In this document: positions 20,525 through 46,117 of the stretch, one piece after another
Numbering within the stretch: the stretch's first letter is position 1
Layout of the letters: each line of letters begins with the position of its first letter
DNA from: Psychromonas sp. MME1
GTDB lineage: Bacteria; Pseudomonadota; Gammaproteobacteria; Enterobacterales; Psychromonadaceae
Direction of reading: 5' to 3'
Length of the DNA stretch: 64,000 nucleotides
Assembly (NCBI RefSeq): GCF_041080865.1
Contig: NZ_CP160906.1
Span: 2,108,001-2,172,000 of the forward strand
The notes under the pieces: generated by a model
What the model was told of the DNA's origin: nothing
The model's database searches: none
The model's input: only the letters and a program-made list of their open reading frames with translations
Made by a program: the position numbers and the translations under genes

Positions 20525-20549
20525 TTTATGAAGGAAATTATTGCGAGTG

Positions 20550-22990: not shown

Positions 22991-23029
22991 GTTGCCAAAT
23001 CAGTGAATCAATCAACCAGATATCACAAT
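22991..23029 (+). promoter_or_regulatory. Candidate XylR-like operator, GH3 copy 1
   Basis: Two direct half-sites, CCAAAT at 22995 and CCAGAT at 23016, exactly 21 bp apart, the second followed by ATCACAAT. It lies between regulator copy 1 and the GH3 gene. The same arrangement precedes five other genes here. Confidence 0.6.
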
Positions 23030-23077
23030 GTGACGCAGCTACGAATTTTTTATATGGTTCTCTTTCACAGAAGAAGA

Positions 23078-24172
23078 TTAAGCCATTGTTCCCTTTCGAT
23101 ACTCTAACGGCGTATAATTAAATTGCTTTCGATATACTTTATAAAAATAACTTAGATTTGGATAGCCACATTGTAAGGCGATGCTCTCGATTGAGTCATG
23201 ACTGCTTCTGAGTAATTTTTTAGACTTAGAAAGTCTTAAATCTGATAAATATTGATGTACGCTTACCCCTTTACAAGCAATGAAACGATTCTCTAAAGTC
23301 CTGCGAGATACCCGGCAAAAATCAACAACTTGTTGAACTTTTATATTCATATGAAAATTATTGTGCAAATAATACAGGGCTTTACTGACAATATCATTTT
23401 GACTTTCCATGGTTATCGTTGACTTTCCATGTATTAAACTCACAGGCTGATACTTTTCGTGCACTATTCGTTTAAGACGTTTGGCTTTAACTAAAACCTC
23501 TACACAGCGTTGCCCAATTTCATAGGGATCATGATTAACAGAGCTTAATGGAATGGCTGAAATAGCATTCTCTGAATCATCACAATCCGTACCGATAATC
23601 GAGACTTGCTTTGGCACTTCTACATTTCTTTCAATACAAAAATTAACTAACTTTCTTGCCGAGCGATCTGTCGCACAATAAACGCCTAGAGGAAATTTCC
23701 TCAACGCGATAGCCTCATGTATATCATTAAAGTACTTAAACTCTAATTCATTGGCGTGTTTCTCAAAGCACTCTAATCTTTCAGTCGCCCATCCCGTATT
23801 ACACTCCCGAGGCTCCATATAAAATGCAACATTCTCAATGTCATTTTGCATAAATTGCCCTAATGCTAGGCAAGCAAAGTGGTCATTATCATTCACTAAC
23901 GTTGACACAGATTCAGGGGGATTTTGTATTCTATAACCAGAGAAGATCAGAATATTCGTATTTAAGCGGGGAATAACTCTATAGCGATCTCCCTTATCAA
24001 AATCTGCAATCACATAATCCCAATGCTGGGAAAGTATATCTTCAGCATGCTCAATCGAGTCAATAGTGATAGTAAACTTCAATTGATACTCATCGACTTT
24101 TGATTTTATACCTTTCAACACTTCCCTATCAAAATGAAACATTGTATCGATCAACAGTAATAATTTAGTCAT
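23078..24172 (-). CDS. XylR-like AraC-family regulator, copy 1
   Basis: 364 residues with the XylR architecture: an N-terminal periplasmic-binding-protein-like ligand domain (about 1-255) opening MTKLLLLIDTMFHFDRE and an AraC-type double helix-turn-helix at the C-terminus (about 265-362) ending in QCGYPNLSYFYKVYRKQFNYTPLEYR. It is much closer to the copies at 24848 and 44493 than to the true XylR at 55767, so the effector is probably a gluco- or cello-type sugar; that is inference. It lies just upstream of GH3 copy 1, with an operator between them. Confidence 0.9.
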   Translation of the reverse strand: MTKLLLLIDTMFHFDREVLKGIKSKVDEYQLKFTITIDSIEHAEDILSQHWDYVIADFDKGDRYRVIPRLNTNILIFSGYRIQNPPESVSTLVNDNDHFACLALGQFMQNDIENVAFYMEPRECNTGWATERLECFEKHANELEFKYFNDIHEAIALRKFPLGVYCATDRSARKLVNFCIERNVEVPKQVSIIGTDCDDSENAISAIPLSSVNHDPYEIGQRCVEVLVKAKRLKRIVHEKYQPVSLIHGKSTITMESQNDIVSKALYYLHNNFHMNIKVQQVVDFCRVSRRTLENRFIACKGVSVHQYLSDLRLSKSKKLLRSSHDSIESIALQCGYPNLSYFYKVYRKQFNYTPLEYRKGTMA

Positions 24173-24847
24173 AGGTATACCATACAGTGTCAGTAAAATG
24201 GAGGCCTACATAGAGGCAATAATAATTTTTAATGAATAAATTAACGTGAATAATAATGGTTATGAGATGTGCTGTCAGGCTAAAATCGACAAACTAGAAG
24301 GCTATTGATCTCCTTATCTTCTAACCATTTTTGTTACCATAACACCAGTAAACAGCTTTAGAAATCTGTTAAATAACAAGACATTCCAGCTGATTTGTTG
24401 ATATTCATTCCTTGAGCTTTTTATCAATATTGGTCGATTCATCAAGGCTGTTTGTAACCGTACAGTTAGCCACCCAAGAATAAGGGGGTTTAAGGATATA
24501 TTCAAATTTCTAATTGGTATTATCCATTACTTTGATGCATCCATCACAGCAATATAATTTTTCACGTAAATCATTTGGTGGGAATAGCTTGAGTTTTTTA
24601 TTAACCGATATTAAGGAGTGAATTGATAACCTGATGCGTTTAATTCGAACTAAAGGATTATTAATAGCAATTATTAGCGATGGCCATAACTGCTTACCTT
24701 GCCAAATCGTTCGATTAACATATCTGTTGGTATAAATAAGCAGTTACACTGTTTTTAATTTATTGCAGTGCCCAAACTTTGAATCATGTAAAATCTGATC
24801 CCGACTTTAATAAAACCTTCAACTAACTGAATGCCCAGGCCGTTAAT
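24173..24847. other. Intergenic region between two regulator genes
   Basis: 675 bases with no convincing gene. The short minus-strand frame at 24314-24505 has no recognisable features or ribosome-binding site. The promoter of regulator copy 1 must be here. No 21-bp spaced operator pair was found. Confidence 0.5.
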
Positions 24848-25945
24848 TTACATTGCATTAAGTCCTTGACGATACTCACAAGGAGTGTAATCAAATTGTT
24901 TTCTATAGATTTGATACAGATAACTTTGATTAGGGTAACCACATTGTAAGGCGATACTCTCTATCGAGTCTTTACTATTCCTGAGTAGTTTTTTAGACTT
25001 AAGAATACGCAAAGTCGCTAAATATTGGTGTACGCTTACCCCTTTACATTTAATAAAGCGATTATCTAACGTCTTACGAGATACTCTACAATAATCAAGA
25101 ACTTGTTGAACTTTTATATTGAAATGAAAATTATTATGTAAATAATAAAGTGCTTTGTTTACAATGTGATCCTGATTTATCTCTTCTTGTGTTGATTTTT
25201 TATTCATTAAACTAGCAGGCTGAAACTTCTCATGCAATACTCTTTTGAATCGTTTTGCTTTAAGTAGCACATCCATGCAGCGCTGTCCTAACATATAAGG
25301 GTCATGGTTAACGGAACTTAACGGCAAAGGAGAGATAGAACGTTCAGCATCGTCACAGTCTGTCCCTATAATAGAAACCTGCGTTGGCACTGCAATATTT
25401 CTTTCAGTGCAAAAGTTGACCAACTTTCTTGCCGAACGATCGGAAGCACAGTAAACCCCTAAAGGAAATTGCCTTGAAGCAATCGCTTCTTTGACATTTT
25501 CAAAATATTTAAATTCGAGCCGATTCGCGTGATTATCGAACGTTTGTTTTCGTTCATTCGCCCAACCTGCATTGCATTCTCTGGGTTCCATGTAAAATGC
25601 AACATTATGAATATCATTTTGCAGGAATTGTCCTAATGCTAAGCAAGCAAACTGTTCATTATCGTTAACCAAGGTCGATACAGACTCTGGAGGGTGTTCA
25701 ATGGCATAACTAGAATATATAAGGACATTAGAATTTAAACGCGGAATAATTCGGTGGCGATCTCCTTTATCAAAATCAGCAATAACGTAATCCCATTGCT
25801 CGGACAAAATCTCATCGGCATGTTCGATAGATTCAATAGCAATCGTCAATTTTAATTGATATTCGTCAATTTTGGCTTTAATACCTTTTAATATTTCTCG
25901 ATCATAATAGAACCTAGTATCAATCAACAATAATAATTTATTCAT
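24848..25945 (-). CDS. XylR-like AraC-family regulator, copy 2
   Basis: 365 residues from the ATG at 25945, chosen because it aligns with the starts of its paralogues; an in-frame ATG at 25957 is possible. Domains as in copy 1: PBP-like sensor (SIIGTDCDDAERSISPLPLS, ADFDKGDRH) and C-terminal AraC helix-turn-helix (VQQVLDYCRVSRKTLDNRF, QCGYPNQSYLYQIYRKQFDY). Unlike copies 1 and 3 it is not followed by a glycosidase; it sits between the orphan ATPase gene and copy 1, with 675 empty bases downstream, which may mark a lost target gene. Confidence 0.9.
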   Translation of the reverse strand: MNKLLLLIDTRFYYDREILKGIKAKIDEYQLKLTIAIESIEHADEILSEQWDYVIADFDKGDRHRIIPRLNSNVLIYSSYAIEHPPESVSTLVNDNEQFACLALGQFLQNDIHNVAFYMEPRECNAGWANERKQTFDNHANRLEFKYFENVKEAIASRQFPLGVYCASDRSARKLVNFCTERNIAVPTQVSIIGTDCDDAERSISPLPLSSVNHDPYMLGQRCMDVLLKAKRFKRVLHEKFQPASLMNKKSTQEEINQDHIVNKALYYLHNNFHFNIKVQQVLDYCRVSRKTLDNRFIKCKGVSVHQYLATLRILKSKKLLRNSKDSIESIALQCGYPNQSYLYQIYRKQFDYTPCEYRQGLNAM

Positions 25946-26091
25946 ATTAATATCCATTTAATATATCTATTTATTAACTTAATCACGATCAAAATAAAGC
26001 AGAGCATGCCAATTACCGAAAGCAAGAAAACACGCTCTTTATACCCAAACGACTTCATAACTAGAGAAATTTGGATATTAAACATTCAAAA

Positions 26092-27186
26092 TTATCTCGC
26101 GATCACCTCTTCAGTTTGTGAATCAAAAAGATGCATTTTTGTCTTATCAATATACAGATCAATTATCTGCCCCTCTTCGATTAAATCACTGGATAGCGTT
26201 TCAACGGTCAATATACACTTACCAAACTGTGTTTCTAAATGTATGTTAGCACCCAATAATTCGAATGTTTCCACTTTCACTTTAATAGCGACCGAATCTT
26301 CAAGTAACTCTGCAGATAAATGTATGTCACTTGGGCGTATGCCAATTAATACATTTTGATTTTTCTGAACTTGCATACTGTTTGTTGGCAAAGGAAGCGT
26401 TTCACCCGCAACTTCAATATATAAACTTTCCGCTTGTTGTATTTTACCTTCGAGTAAATTCATTGATGGACTACCAATGAAACCAGCCACAAATTTATTC
26501 GCGGGTCTATTATAAATCTCTTCAGGCGTACCAACTTGTGCGATATGCCCACCATGTAAAACCACAATTCGATCAGCTAATGTCATAGCCTCGACCTGGT
26601 CATGTGTAACATAAATTGTTGTTTTCTTTATTTTTCTATGGAGCTCTTTAATTTCACTGCGCATCGCATTGCGCAGCTTTGCATCTAAATTAGAAAGAGG
26701 CTCATCGAATAAAAACACCTCTGGTGTACGTACCATGGCTCTGCCCATCGCAACACGTTGTCTCTGCCCTCCAGACAATGCTTTGGGTTTACGGTTTAAT
26801 AATGGAGTTAATTGCAGCATATCCGTGATAGGTCTAACCTTTTTTTCTATTTCAGCTTTCTTTAAACCAGAAAGCTTCAAAGAAAATGCGATATTATCGT
26901 AAACAGTCATATGAGGGTATAAAGCATAGCTCTGGAATACCATTGCAATATTTCTGTCTTTAGGCTCCATATCATTAATAACATCATCACCAATAATAAT
27001 ATCGCCACCAGAAATATCTTCCAATCCAGCTAACATCCGTAATGTTGTTGATTTTCCACAGCCCGAAGGACCAAGGAACACAATAAACTCCCCTTCTTTT
27101 ATTTTTAAATTGAAATTTTTAACAACGTGTACATTGCCAGGATAAATTTTATCTATATTTTTGAATTCTATTGAAGCCATTCTCAT
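26092..27186 (-). CDS. Orphan MsmX/UgpC-type sugar ABC ATPase
   Basis: 364 residues. Walker [10 protein letters not shown], signature [14 protein letters not shown], Walker [17 protein letters not shown], switch His in VTHDQ and the C-terminal MalK-type regulatory domain are intact. AAGG lies before the ATG at 27186. It is closely related to the ATPase at 15526 but has no permease or binding-protein genes beside it; it follows aldose 1-epimerase by 47 bases, presumably in the same transcript. It could energize the importer at 12390-15514 as an alternative subunit, or serve a transporter elsewhere, as MsmX does in Bacillus. Confidence 0.92.
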   Translation of the reverse strand: MRMASIEFKNIDKIYPGNVHVVKNFNLKIKEGEFIVFLGPSGCGKSTTLRMLAGLEDISGGDIIIGDDVINDMEPKDRNIAMVFQSYALYPHMTVYDNIAFSLKLSGLKKAEIEKKVRPITDMLQLTPLLNRKPKALSGGQRQRVAMGRAMVRTPEVFLFDEPLSNLDAKLRNAMRSEIKELHRKIKKTTIYVTHDQVEAMTLADRIVVLHGGHIAQVGTPEEIYNRPANKFVAGFIGSPSMNLLEGKIQQAESLYIEVAGETLPLPTNSMQVQKNQNVLIGIRPSDIHLSAELLEDSVAIKVKVETFELLGANIHLETQFGKCILTVETLSSDLIEEGQIIDLYIDKTKMHLFDSQTEEVIAR

Positions 27187-27233
27187 TTCTACCTTAATTT
27201 AGTCTATCGAATTAACATTATTTAGTTTAAATT

Positions 27234-28278
27234 TTATGAATTTTCATTGGATATCAATTGGAATATAACCTTGTGCTTATAAGGTCTTTGAGGTGTATAA
27301 ATGCATTGCTTTTTATACGTATCCATATTGATTTGATCTGGATAATGCTGAGTTTCTAAACACAAACCAGCATATTGCTGGTATGTTTGGCCATTTCGAC
27401 CAGTAACATTCTTTAAAAAGTTTCCTGAATAAAACTGAAGACCACTTTGATCCGCATAAACTCTCAAAAATAGCCCACTTTTCGCACTATACGCAGTGGC
27501 AGCAAATTGAATGCCTTCTCCCTCAAGACACCAACAATGGTCAAAGCCCTTTGATTATCGCTAATTCACGAGGTTGAGCAAGAACATCTTTACGTAATTT
27601 TTTAGGTTTACGGAAATCCATCACGGTATTTTCTACGGCACACTTATCAACCGGGATAGAAAAATCATCCGTTACGAAGTATTTTTCAGCATTAATAGTA
27701 AGCGAATGATCAAGTACATCACCTCCACCATTAAGATTAAAATAGGTATGTTGTGTTAAATTAACAGGGGTATCACGATCAACATTTGCTAAGTAATCAA
27801 CCATTAATTCATTATCATTGTTCAACGTATATGAGACGTAAATCTCCATGTTCGCAGGAAAACCACCTTCAAGATAAGCAATGTTTGTTCTTAGGGTAAC
27901 AGAAGTTGCTGATACCGCTTCCAGTACCCATTTCTTTTTATGGATTGCACATGAGCCTCCATGCAAATGATTGCGGCCCTCGTTTTGATCAACAACAATT
28001 TGCTCACCATTGAGTTCAAATTTTCCCTGTGCAATACGATTAGCCCAAGGACCAACAACAGAGCCAAGAAAAACATCACCATCTAAATATTCTTGAGGAG
28101 AGTCATATCCCAGTACAATATTTTTTATGTCTCCTACTTTATCTTTAACATATAAATTAACGATAGTTGCCCCTAAATTTGATATGTCAACTTGGATACC
28201 ATTATCATTAGACAGTGTATATAATTGGTATTCACCCCAAGGCTTACTTTTAATTTGCCGCCTCTCTTTGAGTAACAT
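27234..28278 (-). pseudogene. galM: Aldose 1-epimerase (galM-type), one frameshift
   Basis: Two frames, 28278-27541 and 27467-27234, together make one mutarotase of about 347 residues. Removing one C from the run at 27547-27549 gives the continuous segment IIKGFDHCWCLEG. NEGRNHLHGG, the catalytic His in VNLTQHTYFNL and the catalytic Glu in CLETQHYPDQ are present. It interconverts alpha and beta anomers of glucose and similar sugars released by the glycosidases. A second, intact copy is at 57061-58098. The lesion is one base in a homopolymer and may be a sequence error. Confidence 0.88.
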
Positions 28279-28410
28279 AACGTTTCCTAACTCCCTATTT
28301 CAAAGGGCAACAACAATGATATTTTGTTGGACCTTTTTAATAAATTTAAACTTAAGTGGTAGTAATATGAGTGATTCTCGAAAAAATTAATCTATATCCG
28401 GCGCACAATT

Positions 28411-28446
28411 ACAAAATTAGTGAATCAATGAACCAAATATCACAAT
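28411..28446 (+). promoter_or_regulatory. Candidate XylR-like operator, galM
   Basis: ACAAAAT-type half-site (CAAAAT at 28412) and CCAAAT at 28433, 21 bp apart, the second followed by ATCACAAT. The flanks are clearly homologous to the region upstream of GH3 copy 1. Confidence 0.6.
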
Positions 28447-28513
28447 AAAATAATTACAAAATCTCCCTCTTTTTGCCCTCTTTCAACAAAATAATATACG
28501 ACGGAGCTCTCTT

Positions 28514-28618
28514 TCAATACTCGAACGACGCATAATTGAATTGCTTTCGATAGCGTTGATAAAGATAATTTTGCTTTGTATAACCACATTGTGAGGCTAT
28601 GTTATGGGTTGAATAATG
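28514..28618 (-). pseudogene. Relic C-terminus of a fourth XylR-like regulator
   Basis: The minus strand encodes 34 residues ending in a stop, including NIASQCGYTKQNYLYQRYRK, which align with the last 35-40 residues of the three intact regulators (IALQCGYPNLSYFYKVYRKQ). Nothing recognisable precedes it, so the gene was truncated. It occupies the same place relative to an operator and a downstream gene as regulator copies 1 and 3. Confidence 0.85.
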
Positions 28619-28884
28619 ACCGTTTTTAGGCCATTTTGGGGAATTGTAAAATCGCAAATCGGATTAATATCCACTTCTCGAACATGGGTTCTTGCCCTTG
28701 TAGCAAGTAAGAGCGTCTGAAATGCTCAGTTAAGAGACATTCTTAGCTTTGGACGTTTCATCGTTTAACTACATATATTTTAAGCTTCATAAAAACACGC
28801 TATTGTTATACTTTTCCACTCAGACAGACTAATAGACTAGATTCATCGCTCGCATATTTCTGGTCGAAGATGCAGATCACAATT

Positions 28885-28920
28885 ACCAAATAGACGAGTT
28901 CCGTTATCAAATATCACAAT
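28885..28920 (+). promoter_or_regulatory. Candidate XylR-like operator, GH9
   Basis: CCAAAT at 28886 and TCAAAT at 28907, 21 bp apart, the second followed by ATCACAAT. It lies 117 bases upstream of the GH9 start, here in the same orientation as the gene. Confidence 0.6.
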
Positions 28921-29036
28921 TGAAGAAAATAACTAAAAGGATAAATATATCCTCACTATTTGAAGTTAATAAAACAACTAACCATTTAGCTTTTTATTTC
29001 GGATAAAATTTATCGCATCATATAACGGAGTTTTTC

Positions 29037-31412
29037 ATGACTATTTATCGAAAAAGTATAGTAGGTCAAGGGATAGCAACTATTCTAACAGCGGGTTTAG
29101 TGGTTGGCTGTGTTACGACTGGAAACAGTTCTACAGCAAAAAAAAGAATTATCAAATAATTCCCAATCAAAACAAAGTGAGAGTGGGGAGTTATTACAAA
29201 ACCCTCAATTTAAAAAGGGAGAAGAAAGTTGGTGGGTTTCAGGTGGTCAACTAGCAGTAAAAAATGGCGAAGCTTGTGTTAATATTACACAGCCAGGTTC
29301 TAATAATTGGGATGTGATTTTAGGTCAAGGTGGTCTCGGTCTAGAAAATGGACAATCATATCAAGTCAACTTCACCGCACGTTCTTCTGTTGAAACTAAA
29401 TTTAAAGCATTAATTCAACATGATGGCGCTCCCTACACTGGTTACTTTAATGAAGATATTTCTGTTGGTCCAACGGCAAAAACATATTCCTTTAATTTCA
29501 CCCAAAAAGAGCCAAGTGATGCTAAAACCGGATTCCAATTTCAGCTAGGTGCACAAAAAAAGCTGATATTTGTTTTAGTGACGTCTCGTTAAAAGGAAAA
29601 AGCTTCAAAAAAGAAGTCATTATACCAACAGTTCATGTAAACCAAATTGGCTATTTTCCTAAAGCTGAAAAAATAGCAACAATTAAAAGTGATTCAAAAG
29701 AACCTCTTGCATGGCAAATAAAAGATGCTAACGGAAAAATTATTTTAACGGGTATGACAACGGTATTCGGTTTAAATAAAAGCTCTGGCGAGTCTGTTCA
29801 TAAAGCTGATTTCAGCAAATTAACAACACCAAGCAAAGAGATAGTACTTGTCGTCAATGGGGAAGCTAGCCACCCTTTCCGCATTGCTGATGATATCTAC
29901 ACTGAATTAAAATATGATGCACTTGCTTATTTTTATCAAAACCGAAGCGGTATTGAAATTAAGCCTGAATATGTTCAACGCGCTGATTTAGCTCGCCCTG
30001 CTGGCCATCCTAATGAGACAGTTACCTGTTTCAATAAAACAGATGCAAAAGGTAATAAATGGCCTGGTTGTGACTTCGAATTGAACGTTTCTGGTGGTTG
30101 GTATGATGCCGGCGATCACGGTCGATATGTTGTAAACAGTGGTATTAGTGTATGGACTTTACTAAACCTCTACGAGCGCTCTTTATGGATAAAAGATGCA
30201 AAAGTTCCTTTTGCGGACGGTACCCAGACTATTCCAGAAACAAATAACAACGTTAATGACCTATTAGATGAGGTGCGTTGGAATGTTGAATTCATGATGG
30301 CAATGCAAGTTCCAAATGGTAAAAAAGTAACAGTACCAGAGGGAGATCAATCAGCGAATCTTAATCAATTAAAATTAACTGAAATTGACGCATCAGGCTT
30401 GGCTTTTCATAAAGTAGCCGACGAAAAATGGACAGGCATGCCACTACCACCACATAAAGATACAATGGATCGTGCTATTTTTTATCCAACGACATCTGCA
30501 ACATTAAATCTAGCTGCTACAGCGGCACAATGTGCGCGTATCTGGAAAGATATTGATCCCGCATTTTCTGGTCAATGTTTAACGGCTGCACAACGAGCTT
30601 GGGATGCTGCAAATGCCCACCCAGAAGTATTAGCTTATGATAACTTCACAGGATCTGGCCCATATGGGGATACTGACTTATCAGATGAGTTCTACTGGGC
30701 AGGTGCTGAATTATTTATCACAACGGGTGAAGCCAAATACTTAAAAGCAATTAAAGCATCGCCACTATATTTAGTTTCTCCAAGTGATGATAAAGAGTCA
30801 TCAAATGGTTTATACTGGGGTAATCTTGCTTCTGCTGGTACGCTTAGTTTAGCACTAGTACCAAATGAATTACCAAAAAATGATATTCTACAAGCACGTA
30901 AAAACATTCAGAAAACAGCAGATATTTACCTAAAATCAGTTGATGAAGAAGGTTATAATATTCCTTACACTAGCGAAGAGTACCCATGGGGATCGAATTC
31001 TGAAATCCTCAATAACGGTATTTTCTTAAGTTATGCAACAGATTTTACTGGTGATATAAAATACCTACAGGCAGCAGCAGATGGTATGAATTATATCCTT
31101 GGTAATAACCCGCTAGATAAGTCGTATATCTCAGGGTACGGTGAAAATGCTCTTCAAAACCCTCATCATCGCTTCTGGTCTTTCCAAGCGGATAATAACT
31201 CACCAAAACCAGCGCCAGGCGCAATGTCTGGCGGTCCAAACTCAATAAACTTTTCTGACCCAATAGCTGCGACTATCAAAGGTAAATGTATTGGACAAAC
31301 GTGTTTTGTTGATGATATTGGAGCGTGGACACTAAATGAAATAACCATCAACTGGAACTCTCCGCTTGTTTGGATAACAACAGTTTTAGATGAAAAGCGT
31401 TTAAATCAATAA
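29037..31412 (+). pseudogene. GH9 endoglucanase/glucosidase lipoprotein, two frameshifts
   Basis: The ATG at 29037 opens a signal with lipobox VVGC. The frame shifts at the A8 run 29138-29145 (one A too many) and at the A7 run 29555-29561 (one too few); corrected, the protein is about 790 residues. In order: CBM4/9-like jelly roll (NPQFKKGEESWWV to ICFSDVSLKG), a CelD-type Ig-like domain (HVNQIGYFPKAEK) and a GH9 catalytic domain with GGWYDAGDHGRYV, HHRFW and the general acid in LNEITINWNSPL. It would cut beta-1,4-glucan outside the inner membrane. Long intact frames (29754-31412) and homopolymer lesions argue for sequence error. Confidence 0.9.
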
Positions 31413-34318: not shown

Positions 34319-34414
34319 GATAAATCCTTATAAAGTAATTAATTACAGCAGCGAAAACACTTCCATCCTATTTAAACAACAATATCAATTAATTGAGCTC
34401 GTGTGAATGATAGA

Positions 34415-34441
34415 AATTAGTATTATCGTTGTAACCTTTAG
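34415..34441 (-). promoter_or_regulatory. Candidate XylR-like operator, GH5 lipoprotein
   Basis: On the minus strand CTAAAG (34441) and CTAATT (34420) are 21 bp apart, about 97 bases upstream of the GH5 start and in the direction of the gene. The relic promoter carries the same pair. Confidence 0.55.
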
Positions 34442-34919: not shown

Positions 34920-34950
34920 CTAAATATCACAACGACAATACTAATTTACA
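34920..34950 (+). promoter_or_regulatory. Candidate operator before the GH5 relic
   Basis: CTAAAT at 34920 followed by ATCACAA, and CTAATT at 34941, 21 bp apart. The layout matches the operators of the intact GH5 gene and of the GPH symporter. Confidence 0.55.
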
Positions 34951-35039
34951 GCATTCACACGCTTTTAATTAATTGATATTGTTGGAATAGAATGAAAACG
35001 TTTTCGATGCTGTAATTAATGACTTTATAAGGATTTATA

Positions 35040-35283: not shown

Positions 35284-35879
35284 ATTAGAGTTGCGCATTT
35301 TTGTCAGCTGTTATATCCCGCACCAGTCGTATATTGAATTAAATTAGGAGCCTTACTATGAATAAATAAAATATATTTGTTTTGTACCGTAAGTATGCCC
35401 ACTTCTTTATTGGTTAACATAAATGCGTGAGCTAGCAGCATTCTGTTCCTGTTGATATTTATGCTTTCCGGAATATCAAATGAATGAAAGAGCAGCTACA
35501 ACCACTACAGAGGTGAACGCTATCTATTTATTTCAGTAACCAGCTGTTTTAATTGCAAAACAAATAAAAGCCAGCATTCATTTTAACAACAATTAATGAC
35601 TAGATAATGATGGGATTGATGTTATATCAGTTTTTATTTTGTGAGGTAAATGTGACTTTTAATGATATTGACCTACATGATTTGAATGCGACCAATTCTG
35701 AAAAACAGAAGGAAGAGATCGCATAGCAGGCGATAACGCATTATCCCCGAATTTCTAATCACTCAAAAAATTAACTTGATATTTCTTAACATTTCAAGGC
35801 ATTGCTTAAAATTTTTACATACATAAATGAAATAGCTTTCATAGCATTGCGAAAGCTAATTAATCATACTGGACATAAC
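35284..35879. other. Intergenic region upstream of the porin gene
   Basis: No gene seen. A short frame opening ATGAATAAATAA (about 35358) and a 24-codon frame at 35651-35725 may be fragments of decayed genes but match nothing I recognise. The promoter of the porin gene lies here. Confidence 0.4.
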
Positions 35880-37264
35880 ATGAATAAAATCAAACATTTA
35901 AATTTAACCCTTGCTATTCTTTCTGCACTAACCTCTACCTCATTGTTAGCTGATCAAAATACTGACCAAGCTAACGAGCAAGAGAATATAGATACTCTTG
36001 TAAAACGACTTGATGAACTCGAGAAAAAATTACAAATAATTAATTATAAAGATGATCAACAACCCGCAATATTAACGCCAGAGACACCAGTTCAACATGG
36101 TATCGTATTTTCAGGCTATGCTCGTTATGGGGCTAACTTTCAAAATAGTGATGCAAAAACAGTTCGAAGCCACGGTTCATCGCTTGGTAATGCAACAGGC
36201 CGTTTAGGTAATGAGCAAAATGGGGGGGAGTACCAATTTGCTAAAGTATTTGAAGGTGCAAATAACACAAAATGGGATTTAGTCTTCATGGTTGATCATT
36301 GGGCTGATAGAGAATGGGCTGATGATGGTGGTGTTCAAGTTAAAAAAATGTATGCGGGTGCTACAAATATATTTGAATCACAACCCGATCTATATGTTTG
36401 GGCTGGACGTGATTTTCATCAACGCCCTCAGTTTGATATTAATGATTATTTTTGGATGATGCATGATGGACAGGGCTTTGGTTTCTATAATTTAAATATT
36501 GATGAGCTGAAATTCGACTTATCCGCTGTGGCACAAGTTGATGATGATATGGTTGGAGATAATGGCAGATATGCGATCACCAGTAAATTAAGCAATATTA
36601 CAATTGGTGATTCCTTAGATCTTGCTTTTTATGCCAACTACGGTTTTTCATCTGATCAAATAAAAAAAGATGAAGAAGGATCTGAAAATACTTCTAGCAA
36701 TGCCTACCAAATAGCTGCTGAAGGAAAGATACATAATCAACACCTGGTTGTTCGTTATTCAAGTAATGCAGTAAATAGCACGTTTGATTTAGCAGACGGT
36801 GTCGATGCGCTATTATTTAGTCTTGAAGGCAACTTCAAATTTACTGACAAAATTGGCCTACAGTATCTTACATCTTATCAAGATGTAAATGGTGCTAAAG
36901 GTACCTATAAGGTAAGTGATGGCTCAATCAAGGAACGATCATTACCAAAATAGAAGATAGTGAAAGCTACAATATGATAGTTCGCCCTACATACCAATGG
37001 AATGATATACATTCTACATGGCTAGAAGCTGGCTACAGTGTTGTTGATTATGGGGATTTAGATGCGACTAATAAATCTTGGAAATTCACGATATCACAAA
37101 ATATTGCAATCGGGCCTGAAACATGGTCTAGACCAATGATACGTTTCTTTGCAACTATTGGGAATGCAGATAATGAGTATATCGGAATGAGGGATGATAA
37201 TAGCTATGATTCTTCTAATTTAGATACTGCGACTTTTGGTGGTATGTTTGAAGCTTGGTGGTAA
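35880..37264 (+). pseudogene. LamB-type carbohydrate porin, one frameshift
   Basis: Start is the ATG at 35880 with a Sec signal ending TSLLA; an upstream ATG at 35802 would spoil the signal. Frames to 36953 and from about 36960 to 37264 join if one base is added near 36932, giving a protein of about 461 residues. Features: N-terminal coiled coil (NIDTLVKRLDELEKKLQI) as in ScrY/BglH, then the LamB barrel with FSGYARYG, VWAGRDFHQR, and the closing GGMFEAWW, compare the EIWW end of LamB. It should let oligosaccharides through the outer membrane; beta-glucan oligomers from context. Confidence 0.88.
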
Positions 37265-37572: not shown

Positions 37573-37590
37573 AAGCTCCCCATTAATCTA

Positions 37591-37626: not shown

Positions 37627-37666
37627 AAGTTAGGTTACTAAATCATGCGAATCAATTCATCTTTGC

Positions 37667-40452
37667 TCAATCTAAAGCTTCCTTTTTGGTAAACATCAAT
37701 CGCTCTAACGCTAACCCCGGTTTCACGAAATCGAGGGTGAGTTCGTAGTATCCCTTACCCAGCCTTACCTCCAGTCCCTCTACAACAATACTTTCGCCGC
37801 TAGTCCCATTCATGGGAAGAGACATAGCAAAAACGCCATTAAGACTGATGCTACAAGATGACTGTGCCTGAGAGTTGCGATCATAATGGCCAACACCGCT
37901 AAATTGATACACACCAGCTTCAAGCACTTCTATCATCATTGATTTATTGACTTTAGTATTGATAACGAGTTCATCTTGCATAGCTTTTGCTGCAACATTA
38001 GAAGTATTACTTTGTGCGATAAACGTCTTAATCGGATCATAGGCTTCTAGTGGTCTATCCATAGCAGGAGTTGCCATGATAAATCGACAAATATTTATCG
38101 CTGAACGCTGTAATTCACCTAACATCAACGTGCCCTGCTGCAAAGCCTCTAACGTATTGTCTTTCATACTATTAGATTCGGCACCATCATTTTCAACAAC
38201 CATGTAAATGTCGTTCTGTGCGCGAATCATAAAAGAAGTGAATCTCTTATCTTCTTTACCGGCCTCAATGGGATCATTCATCTTCGCCCACCAATCCGTC
38301 ATAACCAGACCGCTAAAGCCCCACTCGCCACGCAAAATAGAAGTATTGAGATCATAATTAGAAGCGCCCCAATGACCATTTATTGGGTTATAACAGGTCA
38401 TGATAGAAGATGCTTCTCCTTCTTTGACTGCCATCTCAAAACCTTTAAGATGAATTTCACGCAAGGCGCGCTCCGATGCAATACTGTCTACATCAACTCG
38501 CGCAGTCTCCTGATCGTTAGCGGCAAAATGCTTAATAGTTCCAGATACTCCTGCTTTTTTTAAGCCGCGAGTTTGAGCCGCGCCCATGACTCCCGTCATC
38601 AAAGGATCTTCAGAAAAATATTCAAAATTACGGCCATTCAACGGGTGTCTGTGAATATTAATGCCAGGGCCTAAAAGACTATCGATTTTATTAGCACAAA
38701 GCTCTTGACCAATCAGGAAGAAAAGCTCCTCATTTAGTGCTTTGTTCCAAGTACATCCAAGCAAAGTACCTATCGGAACTTGAGTTGCCTTGTGACCACT
38801 ATCCATACGTATACCTGAAGGCCCATCAGCTACCGCAACAGCAGGAATGCCAAGATGAAAAAGGTTATCACTAAGACCGCCTAAAGCGGCCGCGGTTCCA
38901 GGCGTAACTTTAGGGCTACACATCCCTTCACCTCGAACTAAAGAGGCTAACTCCTCACAACTCATCTGCGCAACAAACTCTTCTATACTATTTTGCCCTT
39001 CTTTAACATCTTTAAGTTGAATCCCCTGATAGCCCGTTAACTTCAAAGCAGCAGGCATTGCAGACTCAACTCTTTCCTTGAGAGAGATGGCTCTTTGAGG
39101 TACAGCTTCATAGGTTTCTTCATAAGTACCATCTTCCTTAAGAGCGCCTGGTTTCAAGCGTTTGAATGGGTAGATAGGTGCTAAAGCTTCAGTTAGATTT
39201 TCAACAACTAAAAGTTCATCTAGCTCTATTGTTGTGGGAATTGGAACTGCTTTACGTACACTGCCCCCCACGTAAAACTGGTAACTCCCCTCTTCCAGAA
39301 CATAACAGGATCGATGCCCAGTGACACCACTATCGTCATAGGAGGCGAGGGACTTAAGTGCAATAGAAACCCGAAGAATTTGTACATCACCAGGCTTAAG
39401 AGCCTCAGATTTAGCAAAGCCAGCTAGTACTGAACAGGCTTACCAAGATGCCCTTGTGGCGCTTCGCAATATACTTGCAGCACTTCTTTACTGGTGTACT
39501 CTTCACCTATATTTTGCAGTGAAAAATCCAAATGAAGTATACGCTCTATACCCGTACCTTCAATTGAATAGGACTGTAATTCCCGACTAAATTCGGTGTA
39601 GGAAAGCCCAGCGCCAAACTCATATTGTACTGCTTGCGGCTTAAAGGTCTCGAAATAACGATATCCGACATAAATATCTTCAACATAACAATTATAATCT
39701 TTACGACCGAAATAAGCTGATGAAGGATAATCTGATAACTGATAGGCAACGGTGTCGCACATTCTTCCACTTGGAGATACGTTTCCGGAGATAACGTCAG
39801 CGAGAGCATGCCCACCTTCCATCCCTGCAGCCCAACTGTAAATAACCGCCTGAATCGATTCTTTATTATCTATGGTATTCAGCCAAGACATATCCATAAT
39901 ATTAGTAATGTTAAGGATCACAATCACTTTATCAAACTGAGCTGTGACGCCAGTTATCATCGCTTCTTCTTGCTCTGTCAAACGGTAACTACCTGGAGCA
40001 TCAGCGTTATCTTGATCTTCACCAGCAGTACGACCAATGAAAATAAGCGCTTTATCTGAATTTTTCGCAGCTTGTTCGACAAGTTCGGTATTCAGAGGCA
40101 TCTCTTGCTGAAACCAAGGTTCAGCAGCCCAACCACCACCTCCATCATCAAAAGGATTTACTTTGATCCATTCTTCATAGACAGCAGCCAGTTCTTCATT
40201 AATGTCAATGGTAGGATTACTGCGCAGCCCCTCTAACGCATTCACAGCATAATGAACGTTAACAGCCCCGCCAGATCCCGTACCACTTCGATAGGTATTG
40301 ACCTGACAACGTCCAAATAAGGATATTTTTTCTCCCTTTTTGATAGGAAGTACGGCATTGCGATTCTCAAGAAGGACTATTCCTTCACAAGCCGATTGCC
40401 GGCTTATGGGAATAAGCTTTTCCTGTGCCAAGCTTATCATTTTAGTTTGCAT
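37667..40452 (-). pseudogene. GH3 glycosidase with permuted domain order, one frameshift
   Basis: Frames 40452-39424 and (open from about 39430) to 37667 join if one base is added between 39431 and 39432, giving GKPVRVLAGFAKSEAL; the corrected protein is about 928 residues. The domain order is inverted: alpha/beta sandwich first (IVLLENRNAVLPI, IYSWAAGMEGGHALADV), then fibronectin-like (VGYRYFETF to VGGSVRKAV), then the TIM barrel (KHFAANDQE, nucleophile Asp in GLVMTDWW), as in the Ruminococcus albus and Butyrivibrio enzymes. No signal peptide. Follows glucokinase by 96 bases, likely co-transcribed. Confidence 0.88.
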
Positions 40453-40548
40453 ATACTATTCTCTACTATTATTAAAAATTTGTAATAAATCAATAAATCG
40501 AAGGTCGTTATGAGCCTATAACAATGCATTCAAACTCAATATGAACTA

Positions 40549-41505
40549 TTAAAGAAACGCCAACTCCTGGCGAAGATAAATACTTGCCCCCAATAACCCT
40601 GGGTTAGCATTAGTTATCAAAAAGGTAGGAATGGTTGAAAGATGGTCTTTAAATCGCCCTTTTTCTTCAAAATAATATCTAAACTCGCTCGATTGAAAAA
40701 AGTCTATAAAGCGAGGCACAATACCTCCGGCAATATAAACGCCCCCCGTACAGTTCAAATTCAAAGCTATATTGCCCGCGAAGCCACCCATAACCTGACA
40801 AAAAACATCCAAACTTCTTCGCGCAATAACGCAACTACCATCCAATGCAGCTTGCGTAACCTCTTTAGGTTGGTCAAATTTTGCTGGTTGATGAGACAAG
40901 AGGCAAAGACTTTGGTATAAATTTACTAACCCTTGCCCAGATAAAATACGCTCAGCTGAAACATGTCCAAACTGTTCCTGTAATAAAAATAAAACCTCAG
41001 ATTGCTCTCGTGTATTAACTGTAAAGCTGACATGGCCACCTTCTCCGTCCAAGCTCACCCATTTACCTTCTAGTTTGACAATGTGTGATACGCCCAACCC
41101 CGTTCCAGGACCAAACACCGCAGTGAGACCATCTGTTTGAGCGTTTCCCCCACCAATCTGAATTTTTTCTTCTGCGGAGAGAAACGGTACTGCTAATGAA
41201 ATGGCTGTGTAGTCATTAAGCAAATATAAAGACGTTAATTGTAATTTTTCTTTAAGTTCCTTTTGTGAAAAAGCCCATTTTAAATTAGTCATTGCGATAT
41301 AATCGTCCTCAACAGGACAAGCAATGCCAATACAAAGATGTTTAACTTGACCTTGTAATTCAGAAAAATAGTAAACAAGAGCCGCTTCAAGTGTTGCAAA
41401 ATCCTGGCAGGCAAATTCTTTTAACTGCCCCAACTCTCCTGAGTCAAGATTACAGACGGCAAGCCTAATATTTGTACCACCAACATCAGCAACGACTGAT
41501 AACAT
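40549..41505 (-). CDS. glk: Glucokinase
   Basis: 318 residues, the size of E. coli Glk. The N-terminal phosphate loop DVGGTNIRLAV, the catalytic Asp in LLNDYTA, FGPGTGLG, DGEGGH and the C-terminal GGVYIAGGI motif are present. It phosphorylates cytoplasmic glucose with ATP. It lies upstream of the permuted GH3 gene on the same strand, so glucose freed by the glucosidases would be taken straight into glycolysis. Not of the ROK type. Confidence 0.93.
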   Translation of the reverse strand: MLSVVADVGGTNIRLAVCNLDSGELGQLKEFACQDFATLEAALVYYFSELQGQVKHLCIGIACPVEDDYIAMTNLKWAFSQKELKEKLQLTSLYLLNDYTAISLAVPFLSAEEKIQIGGGNAQTDGLTAVFGPGTGLGVSHIVKLEGKWVSLDGEGGHVSFTVNTREQSEVLFLLQEQFGHVSAERILSGQGLVNLYQSLCLLSHQPAKFDQPKEVTQAALDGSCVIARRSLDVFCQVMGGFAGNIALNLNCTGGVYIAGGIVPRFIDFFQSSEFRYYFEEKGRFKDHLSTIPTFLITNANPGLLGASIYLRQELAFL

Positions 41506-41931
41506 GTTTTTCCCCTAAATAGTAAACTTTAATTATTTTTACAAGCACTGATTATTGCGCCAGTGACCTTTTGTTGACAACTGTAATAGTCAAATACGTC
41601 ATCTAAATTTTATCAACAATGATGCCAGTGAACGATGAGCATTTAAATAGTGAAAACTTGTATCTTCTATATGAGATTTGGTATCTCTCTTTTCTAGGCA
41701 GCACAGATTAATAGTTGCGCTATATAAAAGAGGGGCTGTTCAATATGTTGTATTTTCAGTTACAGACAATACGAAGGAGGAAAGGGTAAGGTGAAAATTA
41801 TAGTGTTCGGGTGATACCAATTGGAATAAATAGATAGATGGTCTCTTTAACCACTTAAATTAAACTTTGTTATCATGAGTCACTCCAATCTTAGTAAAAA
41901 TTACCGAAACGGGAGTGACTATTTATATGTT
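41506..41931. other. Intergenic region, glk promoter
   Basis: 426 bases. A MITE-like end (ATACCAATTGGAATAAATAG near 41814) and a 9-bp inverted repeat AGTCACTCC/GGAGTGACT (41878-41920) are the only structures. TCAAAT and CTAAAT boxes near 41590 and 41603 are 13 bp apart, not 21. Confidence 0.45.
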
Positions 41932-44307
41932 TTAGCTATCTTTTTTTTCAGTCATTACTTCTGTTTCACAGATCATCTTCCAGTATTTAGGTAATACATT
42001 AAGTTCACCCGTTACTGTTACGGTTTCATTAAACACGATATCTGTAGCTGAACGACCAATCATAATTTCAAAGTCACCGGGCTCAACTACACGACGATGC
42101 ATGTTGTCAGTAAAGTTAAGCATATCAACAGGCAATGAGAAATTTACAATACCTGTTTCACCTGCTTTGATATCTACTCTAACAAAACCTTTTAACTCTC
42201 GAATAGGTCTTACTAAAGAACACAGTTTATCTTTAACATATAATTGAACAACCTCACAGCCGTCAACAGCGCTGGTATTTTCAATTTCGACTGACACATT
42301 AATCGTTCCATTAATATCAACAGAGTGATTATCAATGGATATGTTTTTATAGTCGAAACTTGAATACGTTAGCCCGTAACCAAAGTTATATTTAGAACCA
42401 AAATGATAAGCGATCGGTGTTCCACCACTCTTTAATTTATGATTGTAGTAATAAGGTACTGCACCTGCATTCTTAGGGATAGATAACGTTAAACGACCAG
42501 ATGGCGCTACTTTACCAGTTATGATATCAATGATTGCATCGGCACCTTCTTGTCCAGGGGCCCAACCAAAAATCACACCAGCAGCTTTTTCTTCAGCGCC
42601 ATTTAGGTTATAGGGACGACCACCTGTTACTAAGATTATAACTGGCTTGCCAGTAGCAATCGCAGCATCAATCAACGCTTGTTGTACACCAGGCAAATCT
42701 AGGCTATCGGTATCAGAGCCTTCTCCAATCGTACCTGTTTGAAATAAGCCTGCTAAGTCACCAACACAAACTAATGCAATATCGGCTTCTGCAACCAGCT
42801 TTGCAGCTGCTGCAATTTGACTCGTATCTTTTGATACAGGAGACTCTAACTTCTGCCCCATTGCCATATCAACATCACCAGGGAAAACAGGGGCGTTTGC
42901 GTGGCGTTCTGTTAATATTTCGCACCCTTTAAGATATGAAACATCAGTAAATTGATCTTTAACTGCTTCTAAAATGGTTTTTGATACTTTTTCCCCATCA
43001 TCCATGCTACTAAGGATAAGGTGAATCGGGAAACTATATCCCCCCAGTAGAGCAAGCTGATCGTCGGCAGTTGGTCCCACTACGGCTATTTTTTGATCTG
43101 TTTTAATCGGTAACGTACCATCATTTTCCATTAAAACCGCTGATTGAGAAGCCACTTGATAAGCAACTTTTTTTGCTTCTTCAGTTTGAAGTTCAATGTT
43201 CTCTTCTTTACAGTATGGATTTTCGAATAAACCTAATTCAAACTTAACTTTTAATATACGAGCAACAATTTCATCAATTTTCTCTAATGAGATCAACCCT
43301 CTATCCATTGCATTTTGAATATAACTTGAACAGGCATCATCTGGTAATTCAATATCGAGGCCCGCATTAAAAGAGAGAGCAGCCGCTTCTGTGCGATCCG
43401 CTGCAATGCCGTGATGAGAAGCGAGTAATTCAATACCGCCATAATCAGCAACAATTAAGCCATCAAAGTCCCATTGATCACGCAATACCGTTGTCAGTAA
43501 ATATTCTGAGCTATGGCATGGCTCATTATCAATATCATGGTAAGCAGGCATAACTGAGCCTGCATTTGCTAACTTAACCGCCATTTCGAATGGCAGCATA
43601 AAAGTATCATTTAGTTCTTTAAATCCAAGGTGCACAGGAGCATGGTTACGCGCACCTTCACTGAATGAATGTCCAACGTAATGTTTTAATGTTGCTAATA
43701 AATCACGTTTTTCAGTTTGCAGCCCCTTCACATAACTGGTTGCAAGTACACCAACATGGTATGGATCCTCACCTAACGTTTCTTCTGTTCTACCCCAGCG
43801 CACGTCGCGGGAAACATCAAGAACAGGAGCCAAGCCATGATGCGCACCTACTTGACGTACCTCTTCCCCGATAATTCTCCCCATCTCTTCGATAAGCTCA
43901 GGATTCCAGGTGTGACCATAATTAAGTGATGACGGGAACAGCGTTGCGCCCTTTGCCATAAGGCCAACTAAACACTCCTCATGAGACATTGCTGGTATAC
44001 CAAGGCGGGTCTCTTCCACTAAATATTTTTGCAGTAAGTTAAGCGCTTTAACACCCTCTTCTGCTGCAATAGTATGTGTTCCAAGAGGACGTGTAATTTG
44101 CCCTAAACCATGTTTTAAACGTTCATCAATCGGTTTACGAGCATCCCCGGAAGCCATCTCTAATTCACGATCTTGATGGTCACCATCAGGACTTAAAATT
44201 AACCATTGAGCACCTAACTGCGCTATTTTTTCAGTCAAAGTCATTTGACTCATTAAGTCTTCAAGTCTCTCTTGAACGCTATGATTGGGGTTTTTATAAA
44301 TGCTCAT
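41932..44307 (-). CDS. GH3 beta-glucosidase (copy 2)
   Basis: 791 residues, cytoplasmic, co-linear with and very similar to GH3 copy 1 over the whole length, including MSIYKNPNHSVQERL, RTEETLGEDPYHVG and the nucleophile loop GLIVADYGG. Copy 2 has a slightly longer charged C-terminus (EVMTEKKDS). It is not followed by a phosphorylase gene, and it has its own XylR-like regulator upstream and its own operator. A shift in substrate (gluco- versus xylo-oligomers) cannot be judged from the sequence. Confidence 0.93.
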   Translation of the reverse strand: MSIYKNPNHSVQERLEDLMSQMTLTEKIAQLGAQWLILSPDGDHQDRELEMASGDARKPIDERLKHGLGQITRPLGTHTIAAEEGVKALNLLQKYLVEETRLGIPAMSHEECLVGLMAKGATLFPSSLNYGHTWNPELIEEMGRIIGEEVRQVGAHHGLAPVLDVSRDVRWGRTEETLGEDPYHVGVLATSYVKGLQTEKRDLLATLKHYVGHSFSEGARNHAPVHLGFKELNDTFMLPFEMAVKLANAGSVMPAYHDIDNEPCHSSEYLLTTVLRDQWDFDGLIVADYGGIELLASHHGIAADRTEAAALSFNAGLDIELPDDACSSYIQNAMDRGLISLEKIDEIVARILKVKFELGLFENPYCKEENIELQTEEAKKVAYQVASQSAVLMENDGTLPIKTDQKIAVVGPTADDQLALLGGYSFPIHLILSSMDDGEKVSKTILEAVKDQFTDVSYLKGCEILTERHANAPVFPGDVDMAMGQKLESPVSKDTSQIAAAAKLVAEADIALVCVGDLAGLFQTGTIGEGSDTDSLDLPGVQQALIDAAIATGKPVIILVTGGRPYNLNGAEEKAAGVIFGWAPGQEGADAIIDIITGKVAPSGRLTLSIPKNAGAVPYYYNHKLKSGGTPIAYHFGSKYNFGYGLTYSSFDYKNISIDNHSVDINGTINVSVEIENTSAVDGCEVVQLYVKDKLCSLVRPIRELKGFVRVDIKAGETGIVNFSLPVDMLNFTDNMHRRVVEPGDFEIMIGRSATDIVFNETVTVTGELNVLPKYWKMICETEVMTEKKDS

Positions 44308-44394
44308 ATTATGGTTCTCATTAGTCGATTGATTATTTAGTGAGGGGTAATATGAATGATTTAAAAAAGTGAATATTAAATCTAGATCATGTTT

Positions 44395-44430
44395 GCCAAA
44401 TAACTAAATTCAACAACCAAATAGCACAAT
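44395..44430 (+). promoter_or_regulatory. Candidate XylR-like operator, GH3 copy 2
   Basis: CCAAAT at 44396 and CCAAAT at 44417, exactly 21 bp apart, the second followed by AGCACAAT; 89 bases upstream of the GH3 start. The cleanest pair in the window. Confidence 0.65.
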
Positions 44431-44492
44431 AAAAGAACATTATGATCGAACAAAAATCAAACATTTATAACGGTATATTGCTTTAGGTGAAA

Positions 44493-45590
44493 TTAAATTA
44501 AATCGATATCTTGACGATATTCATAGGGAGTATAATCGAACTTTTTTTTATATACTTGATATAAATAACTCAGGTTTGGGTAACCACATTGTAGTGCAAT
44601 AGATTCAATGGAATCGCTACTCATCCTTAATAATTTTTTTGATTTAGCAATTCTTAGGTCAGACAAATACTGATGTACTGTGATATTTTTACAGGCAATA
44701 AAACGGTTATCTAGCGTTTTCCGTGATGTCTTACAAAATTCTACAACCTGCTGCACCTTAATATTCAAATGAAAATTATTATGCAGATAATATAGCGCAT
44801 TATTAACAATTTGATCTTGATTCTCTTCAACGATGGTCGAGTATTCATTTATTAAATCAGTAGGTTGGTACTTCTCTGCTAATATTTTGTTAAATCGCTT
44901 AGCCTTAACAAGCACTTCAATGCAACGTCGCCCTAGGTTATAAGGATTGACATTGATAGAGCTTAACGGCATCGCCGACATTTTACGCTCCGCATCATCA
45001 TAATCGGTGCCGATAATTGAGATCTCACTGGGAACAGCAATATTGTGTGTCACACAGAAGTTAACCAATTTTCGCGCTGCGCGATCTGAAGCACAATAGA
45101 CACCGAGAGGATATTGTTGTAACGCAACAGCCTGCCGTACATCTTTAAAGTAATTAAGCGCCATTAACTGTGCATGTTGTTCAAAATAATGTTTTCTTTC
45201 AAGTGCCCAGCCACTATTAGCCTCACTAGGATATGTATAAAAAGCGACATTTTTAATATTATTTTGTACGAACTGTCCAAGTGCTAAAGAAGAGATATGT
45301 TCGTTATCATTCACTAATGTTGACACTAATGGCGGTACATTATCTATCTGATAACTCGAGTAAAGAAGTATATTACCAGTTAAACGAGGAATCACTTCAT
45401 GATGATCTGCTTTATCAAAATCTGCAATAACGTAATCCCATTGCTGAGATAAAATATCATCGACATTTTCTATTGACTCAATATGAATGGAAATTTTCAG
45501 TTGATATTCATTAACTTTTGAGGTGATACCTTTTAGTATCTCACGATCGTAATAAAACATTGTGTCAATTAATAGAAGCAACTTATGCAT
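44493..45590 (-). CDS. XylR-like AraC-family regulator, copy 3
   Basis: 365 residues from the ATG at 45590, which matches the starts of the other copies; the frame extends 31 codons further without support. PBP-like N-terminal domain (MHKLLLLIDTMFYYDREI, IIGTDYDDAERKMSAMPLS) and AraC-type C-terminus (VQQVVEFCKTSRKTLDNRF, QCGYPNLSYLYQVYKKKFDY). Position just before GH3 copy 2 mirrors regulator copy 1 and GH3 copy 1, so the pair was probably duplicated together. Confidence 0.9.
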   Translation of the reverse strand: MHKLLLLIDTMFYYDREILKGITSKVNEYQLKISIHIESIENVDDILSQQWDYVIADFDKADHHEVIPRLTGNILLYSSYQIDNVPPLVSTLVNDNEHISSLALGQFVQNNIKNVAFYTYPSEANSGWALERKHYFEQHAQLMALNYFKDVRQAVALQQYPLGVYCASDRAARKLVNFCVTHNIAVPSEISIIGTDYDDAERKMSAMPLSSINVNPYNLGRRCIEVLVKAKRFNKILAEKYQPTDLINEYSTIVEENQDQIVNNALYYLHNNFHLNIKVQQVVEFCKTSRKTLDNRFIACKNITVHQYLSDLRIAKSKKLLRMSSDSIESIALQCGYPNLSYLYQVYKKKFDYTPYEYRQDIDLI

Positions 45591-46117
45591 AGTGATGGAT
45601 CCGAGCTTAAAAGATACAATAAAGAATATAAGGCTAGCGTTAATGAAGCTAAAACCACGTGAAAAAATGCATGTTAAATGCAATTTATACTAATTTTGTC
45701 ATAGTATATAACGACAAACCAATTATTCTCCTCGGTTAGTATTCATAATACAATGCCATTGTAATATTTTGCAGAAGCACTTATAAATTTAGCTATGAAA
45801 TATGATAAAAGAAACATCTAATTAACACTTCACAAAAGAAAATAACAAATAAAATACCAAGCGCATATATTCAAACGTTCACACACTGCACATTACGTGC
45901 GCTACATCCCAAAAATAACGAATAAAAAATCATTCAGCTTTTAACTCCAAAAAATATAAACCATTAATTTTAAAAAGCTTTTGTTTTTTTTTGCACTATC
46001 TCGTTATGATAAAAACCACACATACCAAATATCATAAAGAGATTACCAATTTACACTAATTGATAAATAAGGGGGTGACGAGAATAATAATCCCATCCTA
46101 AAGTTAATCGGAGTTAC
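45591..46117. other. Divergent intergenic region, regulator 3 / GPH symporter
   Basis: 527 bases, very AT-rich, holding the promoters of both genes and the operator pair at 46024-46057. No gene seen. Confidence 0.6.
46024..46057 (+). promoter_or_regulatory. Candidate XylR-like operator, GPH symporter
   Basis: CCAAAT at 46025 followed by ATCATAA, and CCAATT at 46046 followed by TACACT, 21 bp apart, about 60 bases before the symporter ATG and in the same direction. Confidence 0.6.

Follow-up and report, generated by a model that had tools for sequence, protein, structure and literature searches.

The stretch of DNA analysed here (the window: 64,000 nucleotides, bases 2,108,001-2,172,000 of a single-contig Psychromonas genome of 3.59 Mb) carries glycoside hydrolase (GH), sugar transport and xylose genes, in several of whose promoter regions short direct repeats recur with a 21-bp phase. 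These repeats are real, and they are probably operators of the XylR family: two paralogous regulators, the true XylR and a group of related proteins to which we refer as XylRB, would use two sister operator types, named here class B and class A, respectively. The regulator genes, the putative operators and the genes that they precede are the following.

20550..22907, minus strand: GH3-1, nearest to beta-xylosidases
22995..23028, plus strand (opposite to its gene): putative class A operator before GH3-1 (matrices; same layout in relatives)
23078..24172, minus strand: XylRB-type regulator 1, AraC1 (LacI-like sensor and AraC helix-turn-helix; Pfam, tree)
24848..25957, minus strand: XylRB-type regulator 2, AraC2, after an ABC ATPase gene (Pfam, tree)
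27541..28278, minus strand: galM-like aldose epimerase
28412..28445, plus strand: putative class A operator before galM, beside a relic regulator gene (promoter alignment, Vibrio-only matrix)
28508..28735, minus strand: XylRB-type gene relic with three stops, upstream of the galM site
28886..28919, plus strand (that of its genes): putative XylR-type direct repeat before the carbohydrate-binding module (CBM)/GH9 genes (class B score 33.9, against 20.3 for full class A)
29754..31412, plus strand: GH9 catalytic part (best NCBIfam model a cellobiohydrolase, below cut-off)
41932..44307, minus strand: GH3-2, 85% identical to GH3-1
44396..44429, plus strand (opposite to its gene): putative class A operator before GH3-2 (top window position of the Vibrio-only matrix)
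44493..45683, minus strand: XylRB-type regulator 3, AraC3 (Pfam, tree)
46025..46058, plus strand: putative XylR-family site before the GPH symporter (GPH matrix 45.6, background top 16.9)
46118..47515, plus strand: GPH-family sugar symporter
48824..48857, plus strand: putative class B operator before GH43 (31.4; genome match with 3 mismatches; CRP-like left half 3/5)
48945..50582, plus strand: GH43 (GH43b) with a beta-xylosidase C-terminal domain
53793..55244, minus strand: xylB, xylulokinase
55358..55391, minus strand: putative class B operator before xylB (43.7, window top; genome match with 0 mismatches; CRP-like box at offset -20)
55731..56984, plus strand: true XylR (506 bits to the E. 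coli XylR structure sequence; tree)

The original prediction had described seven pairs of CCAAAT-like half-sites exactly 21 bp apart. All seven stretches are present where it had placed them, and five have both halves within one mismatch at exactly this spacing (22995, CCAAAT/CCAGAT; 28412, CAAAAT/CCAAAT; 28886, CCAAAT/TCAAAT; 44396, CCAAAT/CCAAAT; 46025, CCAAAT/CCAATT), whereas the two on the GH5 side are weak (34441/34420 on the minus strand, CTAAAG/CTAATT; 34920/34941, CTAAAT/CTAATT). Among 11 intergenic stretches (5,589 nt), six pairs occur at spacing 21, namely these five and one at 45792 on the minus strand, and an equal density in chance intergenic DNA was not seen: the 52 other spacings between 8 and 60 give a mean of 0.6 pairs and a maximum of 3, and none of 500 order-1 Markov replicates reached six. 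Across the whole genome, a 34-nt pattern allowing up to three mismatches has seven matches (reversed control, 0); the four with one mismatch (22995, 28412, 28886 and 44396) all lie in the window, and so does one of the three with three mismatches, at 45792(-). The latter position falls below the background top by the 8-promoter matrix described below and was not adopted as a site.

Matrix scores in the window were compared with a 400-kb background from the rest of the genome (L067-L086). The class A half matrix was trained on Vibrio promoters alone, the 8-promoter class A matrix on promoters outside the window (the Vibrio set plus three Psychromonas/Vibrio S17_S38 promoters), the class B matrix on 13 sites and the GPH matrix on four GPH promoters, the last two likewise without any site from the window. 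With the Vibrio-only matrix, 44396, 46025, 28886, 28412 and 22995 occupy ranks 1 to 5 among 127,924 window positions, the first two (15.8 and 15.0) exceeding the background maximum of 13.4; of the seven sites, five are recovered in this way and the two on the GH5 side are not. The 8-promoter matrix gives 30.4, 25.8, 23.7, 21.2 and 16.1 (plus an overlapping 18.3), with four of the five sites above the background top (17.8, the next being 13.8). A position at 10140, before an SGBP-like gene, was weak (15.5 in one scan and 11.9 with the 8-promoter matrix) and was not adopted.

Three XylR-like AraC-type regulators had already been connected with these sites, and their link to the XylR family stands, but a fourth regulator, the true XylR, had gone unlisted. 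All four carry the Pfam domains Peripla_BP_3 and HTH_18, that is, a LacI-like sensor and an AraC-type helix-turn-helix, the same combination as in E. coli XylR, which is also their best solved relative (128 bits for AraC1). AraC1-3 share 67-74% identity with one another and lie outside the group of XylR orthologues (XylRA) that includes the E. coli protein, the true XylR being its sole member in the window: the tree separates XylRB (18 rows, Psychromonas and Vibrio) from XylR (10 rows; E. coli, Vibrio and the window) with support of 100/100, subject to a long-branch warning. AraC1 and AraC2 are mutually closest rows (98/94), and AraC3 joins the GH3-linked copy of P. marina (99/97). The recognition helices differ, most XylRB rows having SRKTLD versus SRSNLE/M and QSY versus LQY (AraC1 has SRRTLE and LSY), and several sensor positions fixed in XylRA are different in XylRB. 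Of the 247 genomes sampled in the family to which G236 belongs, 10 have a match to AraC1 at E<=1e-60; for the order, the figure at E<=1e-50 is 8 of 394, four of them at only 32% identity; in two genomes with such 32%-identity regulators (L042, L043) no site was found at the thresholds used. We infer that AraC1-3 correspond to XylRB of Vibrio sp. EA2, from which they take their name; there, too, a xylan cluster that includes a GH3 gene encodes a distant second relative of XylR (26.0% similarity to the E. coli protein) (PMC12125979).

The evidence that carries the class A assignment comes from promoter position in other genomes. A search of genome contigs with a single-protein query returned no loci, and with an alignment query 19: in 16 of them the match is a XylRB gene of at least 37% identity, and the other three, weak AraC-domain matches, were dropped. 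Twelve of the 19 loci were scanned for class A sites, three of these twelve (L096, L098 and L105) being the previously examined G576, G607 and G491; four further loci (L090, L091, L093 and L092) belong to genomes already in the set (G018, G006 twice and G236). Together with ten tandems known earlier, eight held-out ones give 18 in which xylRB is followed by an orthologous GH3 gene (the distinct lineages being fewer than 18), and in 18/18 the stretch separating the two genes holds a class A site, with half-site nTTACCAAATA (core ACCAAAT), oriented opposite to GH3. The held-out tandems, none of which was used in training, are from V. variabilis, V. comitans, V. salinus, V. maritimus (two), V. 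inusitatus, V. breoganii and V. superstes, and in every one the class A scan of the 11-kb locus has its highest score between xylRB and GH3, on that opposite strand. As the V. maritimus pair is identical and the sites of V. comitans, V. inusitatus, V. breoganii and V. superstes are nearly so, the eight come down to about four different sequences; the GH3 frame is split in three of the records (L094, L099 and L103). Leaving out one lineage at a time, the 12 GH3 sites ranked first in their own loci nine times, second twice (G006, G560) and fifth once (GH3-1).

The distance from the site to the GH3 start codon is about 88 nt in Psychromonas and 50-88 nt in Vibrio, and in five of six aligned promoters a -10-like box, TCATATTA, follows downstream. 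AraC-type proteins bound upstream of the -10 usually activate. The position of the site upstream of this box in the Psychromonas promoters thus argues against XylRB being a repressor or dual regulator of GH3 that an inducing sugar releases, a reading that we hold to be unlikely, although the LacI-like sensor domain, the orientation of the operator opposite GH3 in all 18 tandems and the EA2 XylRB deletion, which showed no growth defect (PMC12125979), would agree with it.

Some of the window sites share a common origin. The GH3-1, GH3-2 and galM promoters align with one another and with the GH3 promoters of G006, G018 and G236, over a stretch that begins at the 3' end of the XylRB gene, represented before galM by the relic with its three stops; judged by this alignment, 22995, 28412 and 44396 are homologous promoter copies, the galM site looking like a displaced copy of the GH3-type promoter. 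The GH5 and GH5-relic promoters (34441/34920) go back to one duplication of ~160 bp (roughly 75-80% identity). Because of these duplications, the seven sites correspond to about four observations, and the reading is carried by the outside evidence, namely promoter position and the held-out loci. That 22995, 28412 and 44396 on the one hand, and 34441 and 34920 on the other, are duplicates might even suggest mere leftovers of promoter duplication in this genome, with no common regulator; we regard this as highly improbable, since the same arrangement exists in Vibrio species and a matrix built on these alone recovers the window sites. As separate members of the regulon, the GH5 and GH5-relic sites found no independent backing: being promoter duplicates, both were rejected in that role, and 34920 stays on as a candidate because it resembles the GPH site. 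The weaker positions are listed below, together with one that the original prediction had not listed.

34408..34441, minus strand: claimed GH5 site, unsupported duplicate of the 34920 promoter (23/38 identical to the GPH site, within background; negative by the full class A and B matrices)
34920..34953, plus strand: candidate site before the GH5 relic (29/38 identical to the GPH site, background best 25; negative by the full class A and B matrices; GPH matrix 8.4, under the background top)
41648..41681, minus strand: extra GPH-like candidate site before glucokinase (29/38 identical to the GPH site; joint second in the window by the GPH matrix, at 12.7, under the background top)

The second operator type was defined on the class B sites of relatives (before xylA, xylB and GH43b), which share CACGTTnACTAAATCAGTGAA-n-TACTAAATTTCATAATTG; genome-wide, this pattern is found at xylB, xylA and GH43b only (reversed control, 0). 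The three top window positions of the class B matrix are those before xylB, GH9 and GH43b, in this order, and in the 400-kb background the xylA site (genome position 231,558) alone exceeds 11.1. In the E. coli xyl region, the best position is the xylA promoter (29.5) and the second is the xylF promoter. The XylR sites at 55391(-) and 48824 had not been listed in the original prediction, and what had been taken for a single operator family separates into two sister types, class A at GH3-1, GH3-2 and galM and the XylR type at GH9 (by score) and GPH (by orthology to a XylRA target, the promoter being presumably the orthologue of the published PxylT). Some Vibrio GPH promoters (L060:7492, L061:11603, L097:3502) carry a class A-like repeat on the opposite strand, mostly with ACGAAAT-type halves.

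A further difference between the two types is a CRP-like left half (TGTGA, at least 4/5) at offset -20, present in 19 of 23 class B sites (no other offset scanned gives more than 35%) and in 0 of 13 class A sites, so that class A lacks the CRP-XylR composite arrangement. It is missing from four class B sites, those of GH43b and GH9 in the window, of xylA in SA13A and of GH43b in P. marina. At class A sites, a CRP-like box was considered and rejected, the left half being absent and the matching right half overlapping the operator. Class B sites also precede the ABC-xylRB operon in V. cyclitrophicus (30.6) and G514 (34.7), and more weakly in G576 and G607 (13.1, 14.1); none was found before this operon in the window or in P. 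marina. Upstream of xylA, at genome positions ~230,320-231,383 (L068:320-1383), lies a second XylR copy split into two overlapping frames, with a strong class B site between it and xylA.

A number of observations weigh against assigning the repeats to two regulators with sister operators. With six letters only, spacing 21 yields 14 pairs over the whole window, coding regions included, where the mean is 6.8 and the maximum 15; near-CCAAAT pairs at this spacing number 49 in the 400-kb background against 33 +/- 6.6, some excess in itself; the core alone is therefore not outstanding and is a poor classifier. The three lower Vibrio-only scores (11.9, 10.9 and 9.6) fall inside the background range, where 8 positions reach 10 or more, and gain from their promoter position. 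Motif-free self-matching of 13 GH3 upstream regions, a partly informative search, put spacing 21 first in 4 and among the top three in 8, and the half-sites are therefore degenerate. The class A site is absent at G508, where xylRB is followed by a GH3 of only 33% identity (not a counted tandem); in G491 (V. ulleungensis; L105) and Vibrio qd031 (L104) it stands before xylRB itself and not before GH3; and where xylRB adjoins ABC genes (L096, L098) no class A site of note was found, the GH3 genes located elsewhere in these two genomes carrying one (L057, L059). On the class B side, the E. coli xylF site scores just 2.6, the GH9 and GH43b sites of the window are assigned to XylR while lacking the CRP-like left half, and the GH9 site scores with both operator types, being third in the window by the Vibrio-only matrix. 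The EA2 XylRB deletion, growing like wild type, belongs here as well.

The same holds for the score of the class A window sites with the class B matrix, 16.6-24.9, above the 400-kb background apart from its xylA site, on account of which cross-binding of XylR to class A sites is possible. Carried to its end, this would mean that the true XylR binds all the sites by itself, the class A differences being drift and XylRB acting elsewhere or being inactive. In EA2, XylRA responds to xylose and recognizes sites with two AT-rich direct repeats; electrophoretic mobility shift assays gave strong binding at PxylB, PxylT, PxylC and Pxyn26B and weak binding at Pxyl3, the GH3 promoter (PMC12125979), which, like the deletion result, is compatible with one regulator. 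We nevertheless judge a single regulator to be quite improbable: class A sites adjoin xylRB in every one of the 18 tandems, the CRP-like left half is missing from all 13 class A sites, and the recognition helices differ. Under our assignment of the GH3 promoter to XylRB, weak binding of XylRA at Pxyl3 would be expected.

XylR-type operators have been described in E. coli, with two XylR sites each at xylA and xylF and a CRP site at xylA (PMC7567609), and in Vibrio (PMC12125979), and the family as a whole is hence not an undescribed one. The E. coli operators are likewise direct repeats that fit the 21-bp phase, and at xylA the first half is preceded by a CRP-like box; class A differs in its ACCAAAT halves, in the missing CRP left half, in its orientation opposite GH3 and in adjoining a paralogous regulator gene. 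The EA2 XylRA motif is also similar (AT-rich direct repeats before xylB, GH3, MFS transporter, ABC and xylanase genes, with similar gene content), but the available portion of that paper's text gives no XylRB operator or target. None is described in the titles and abstract openings of the literature searched, a coverage outside which most subscription journals fall, and the class A version, tied to the little-studied XylRB, looks new.

As to the substrate, the proposal of a beta-glucan regulon fits the GH9 and GH5 of the window, which are cellulase-like. GH3-1 matches beta-xylosidases best (670 and 667 bits, the next being 406), with a match under cut-off to the NCBIfam beta-xylosidase/arabinosidase model; the GH43 and xyl genes point to xylan; and in V. 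cyclitrophicus the same regulator-GH3 pair is surrounded by GH10, two GH43, GH5, xylA, xylB, xylFGH-type genes and XylR. Given that the GH3 enzymes are nearest to beta-xylosidases and that xylan/xylose genes occur in the orthologous clusters, the main substrate is probably something other than beta-glucan, and by gene content the regulon looks xylan-centred, with cellulase genes attached.

Other features of the window were noted alongside. A likely signal peptide (from 29037), the CBM4_9 part and the GH9 catalytic part occupy separate open frames (29037-31412), and so do the N- and C-terminal parts of a third GH3 gene (37667-40452). A LamB-like porin frame stops at 36953, its C-terminal part continuing in another frame to 37263 (35802-37263; a broken or misread gene). 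Right after GH3-1 there is an open frame of 1168 aa with no Pfam match (17054-20560). At 58193-59683, a fucose-isomerase-like protein adjoins a galM-like gene, with 94-96% identity (in the stretches compared) in the xylose regions of two relatives; its sole NCBIfam match, sulfoquinovose isomerase, is far under cut-off.

Taking the motif, its spacing and conservation, the linkage of regulator and gene, the duplication history and the differences in the recognition helices as established, we propose the following for binding, activation, effector and the pairing of proteins with sites. Each regulator would act as a dimer, whose subunits combine the LacI-like sugar sensor with the AraC-type DNA-binding domain, and which would bind two half-sites that, with a phase of 21 bp (two turns), lie on the same side of the helix; with sugar bound, the dimer would recruit RNA polymerase. 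XylR would recognize CTAAAT-type sites at xylB, GH43 and xylA (elsewhere in the genome), most with a CRP-like box just upstream, and probably also the GH9 and GPH sites. XylRB, present as three copies and a relic, would recognize the ACCAAAT-type sites at GH3-1, GH3-2 and galM, working at GH3 as an upstream activator from a site in backward orientation, and its effector would most likely be a xylo-oligosaccharide or related sugar rather than xylose.

More tentatively, and with real doubt, XylRB may sense xylan breakdown as a second regulator with a tuning of its own, respond to an oligosaccharide and own a CRP-free, inverted sister of the XylR operator; jointly with this, duplication of XylRB would have brought that operator to galM in the Psychromonas genome, and XylR would stand above XylRB in V. 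cyclitrophicus, through the XylR site before the ABC-xylRB operon, in a two-tier circuit. The analysis offers a candidate operator and a candidate target, the adjoining GH3, for XylRB, an orphan regulator whose published deletion lacked a growth phenotype, as well as a reason for the weak binding of XylRA to the GH3 promoter in the EA2 study. It would also be a small, self-contained example of paralogous regulators that diverge alongside their operators.

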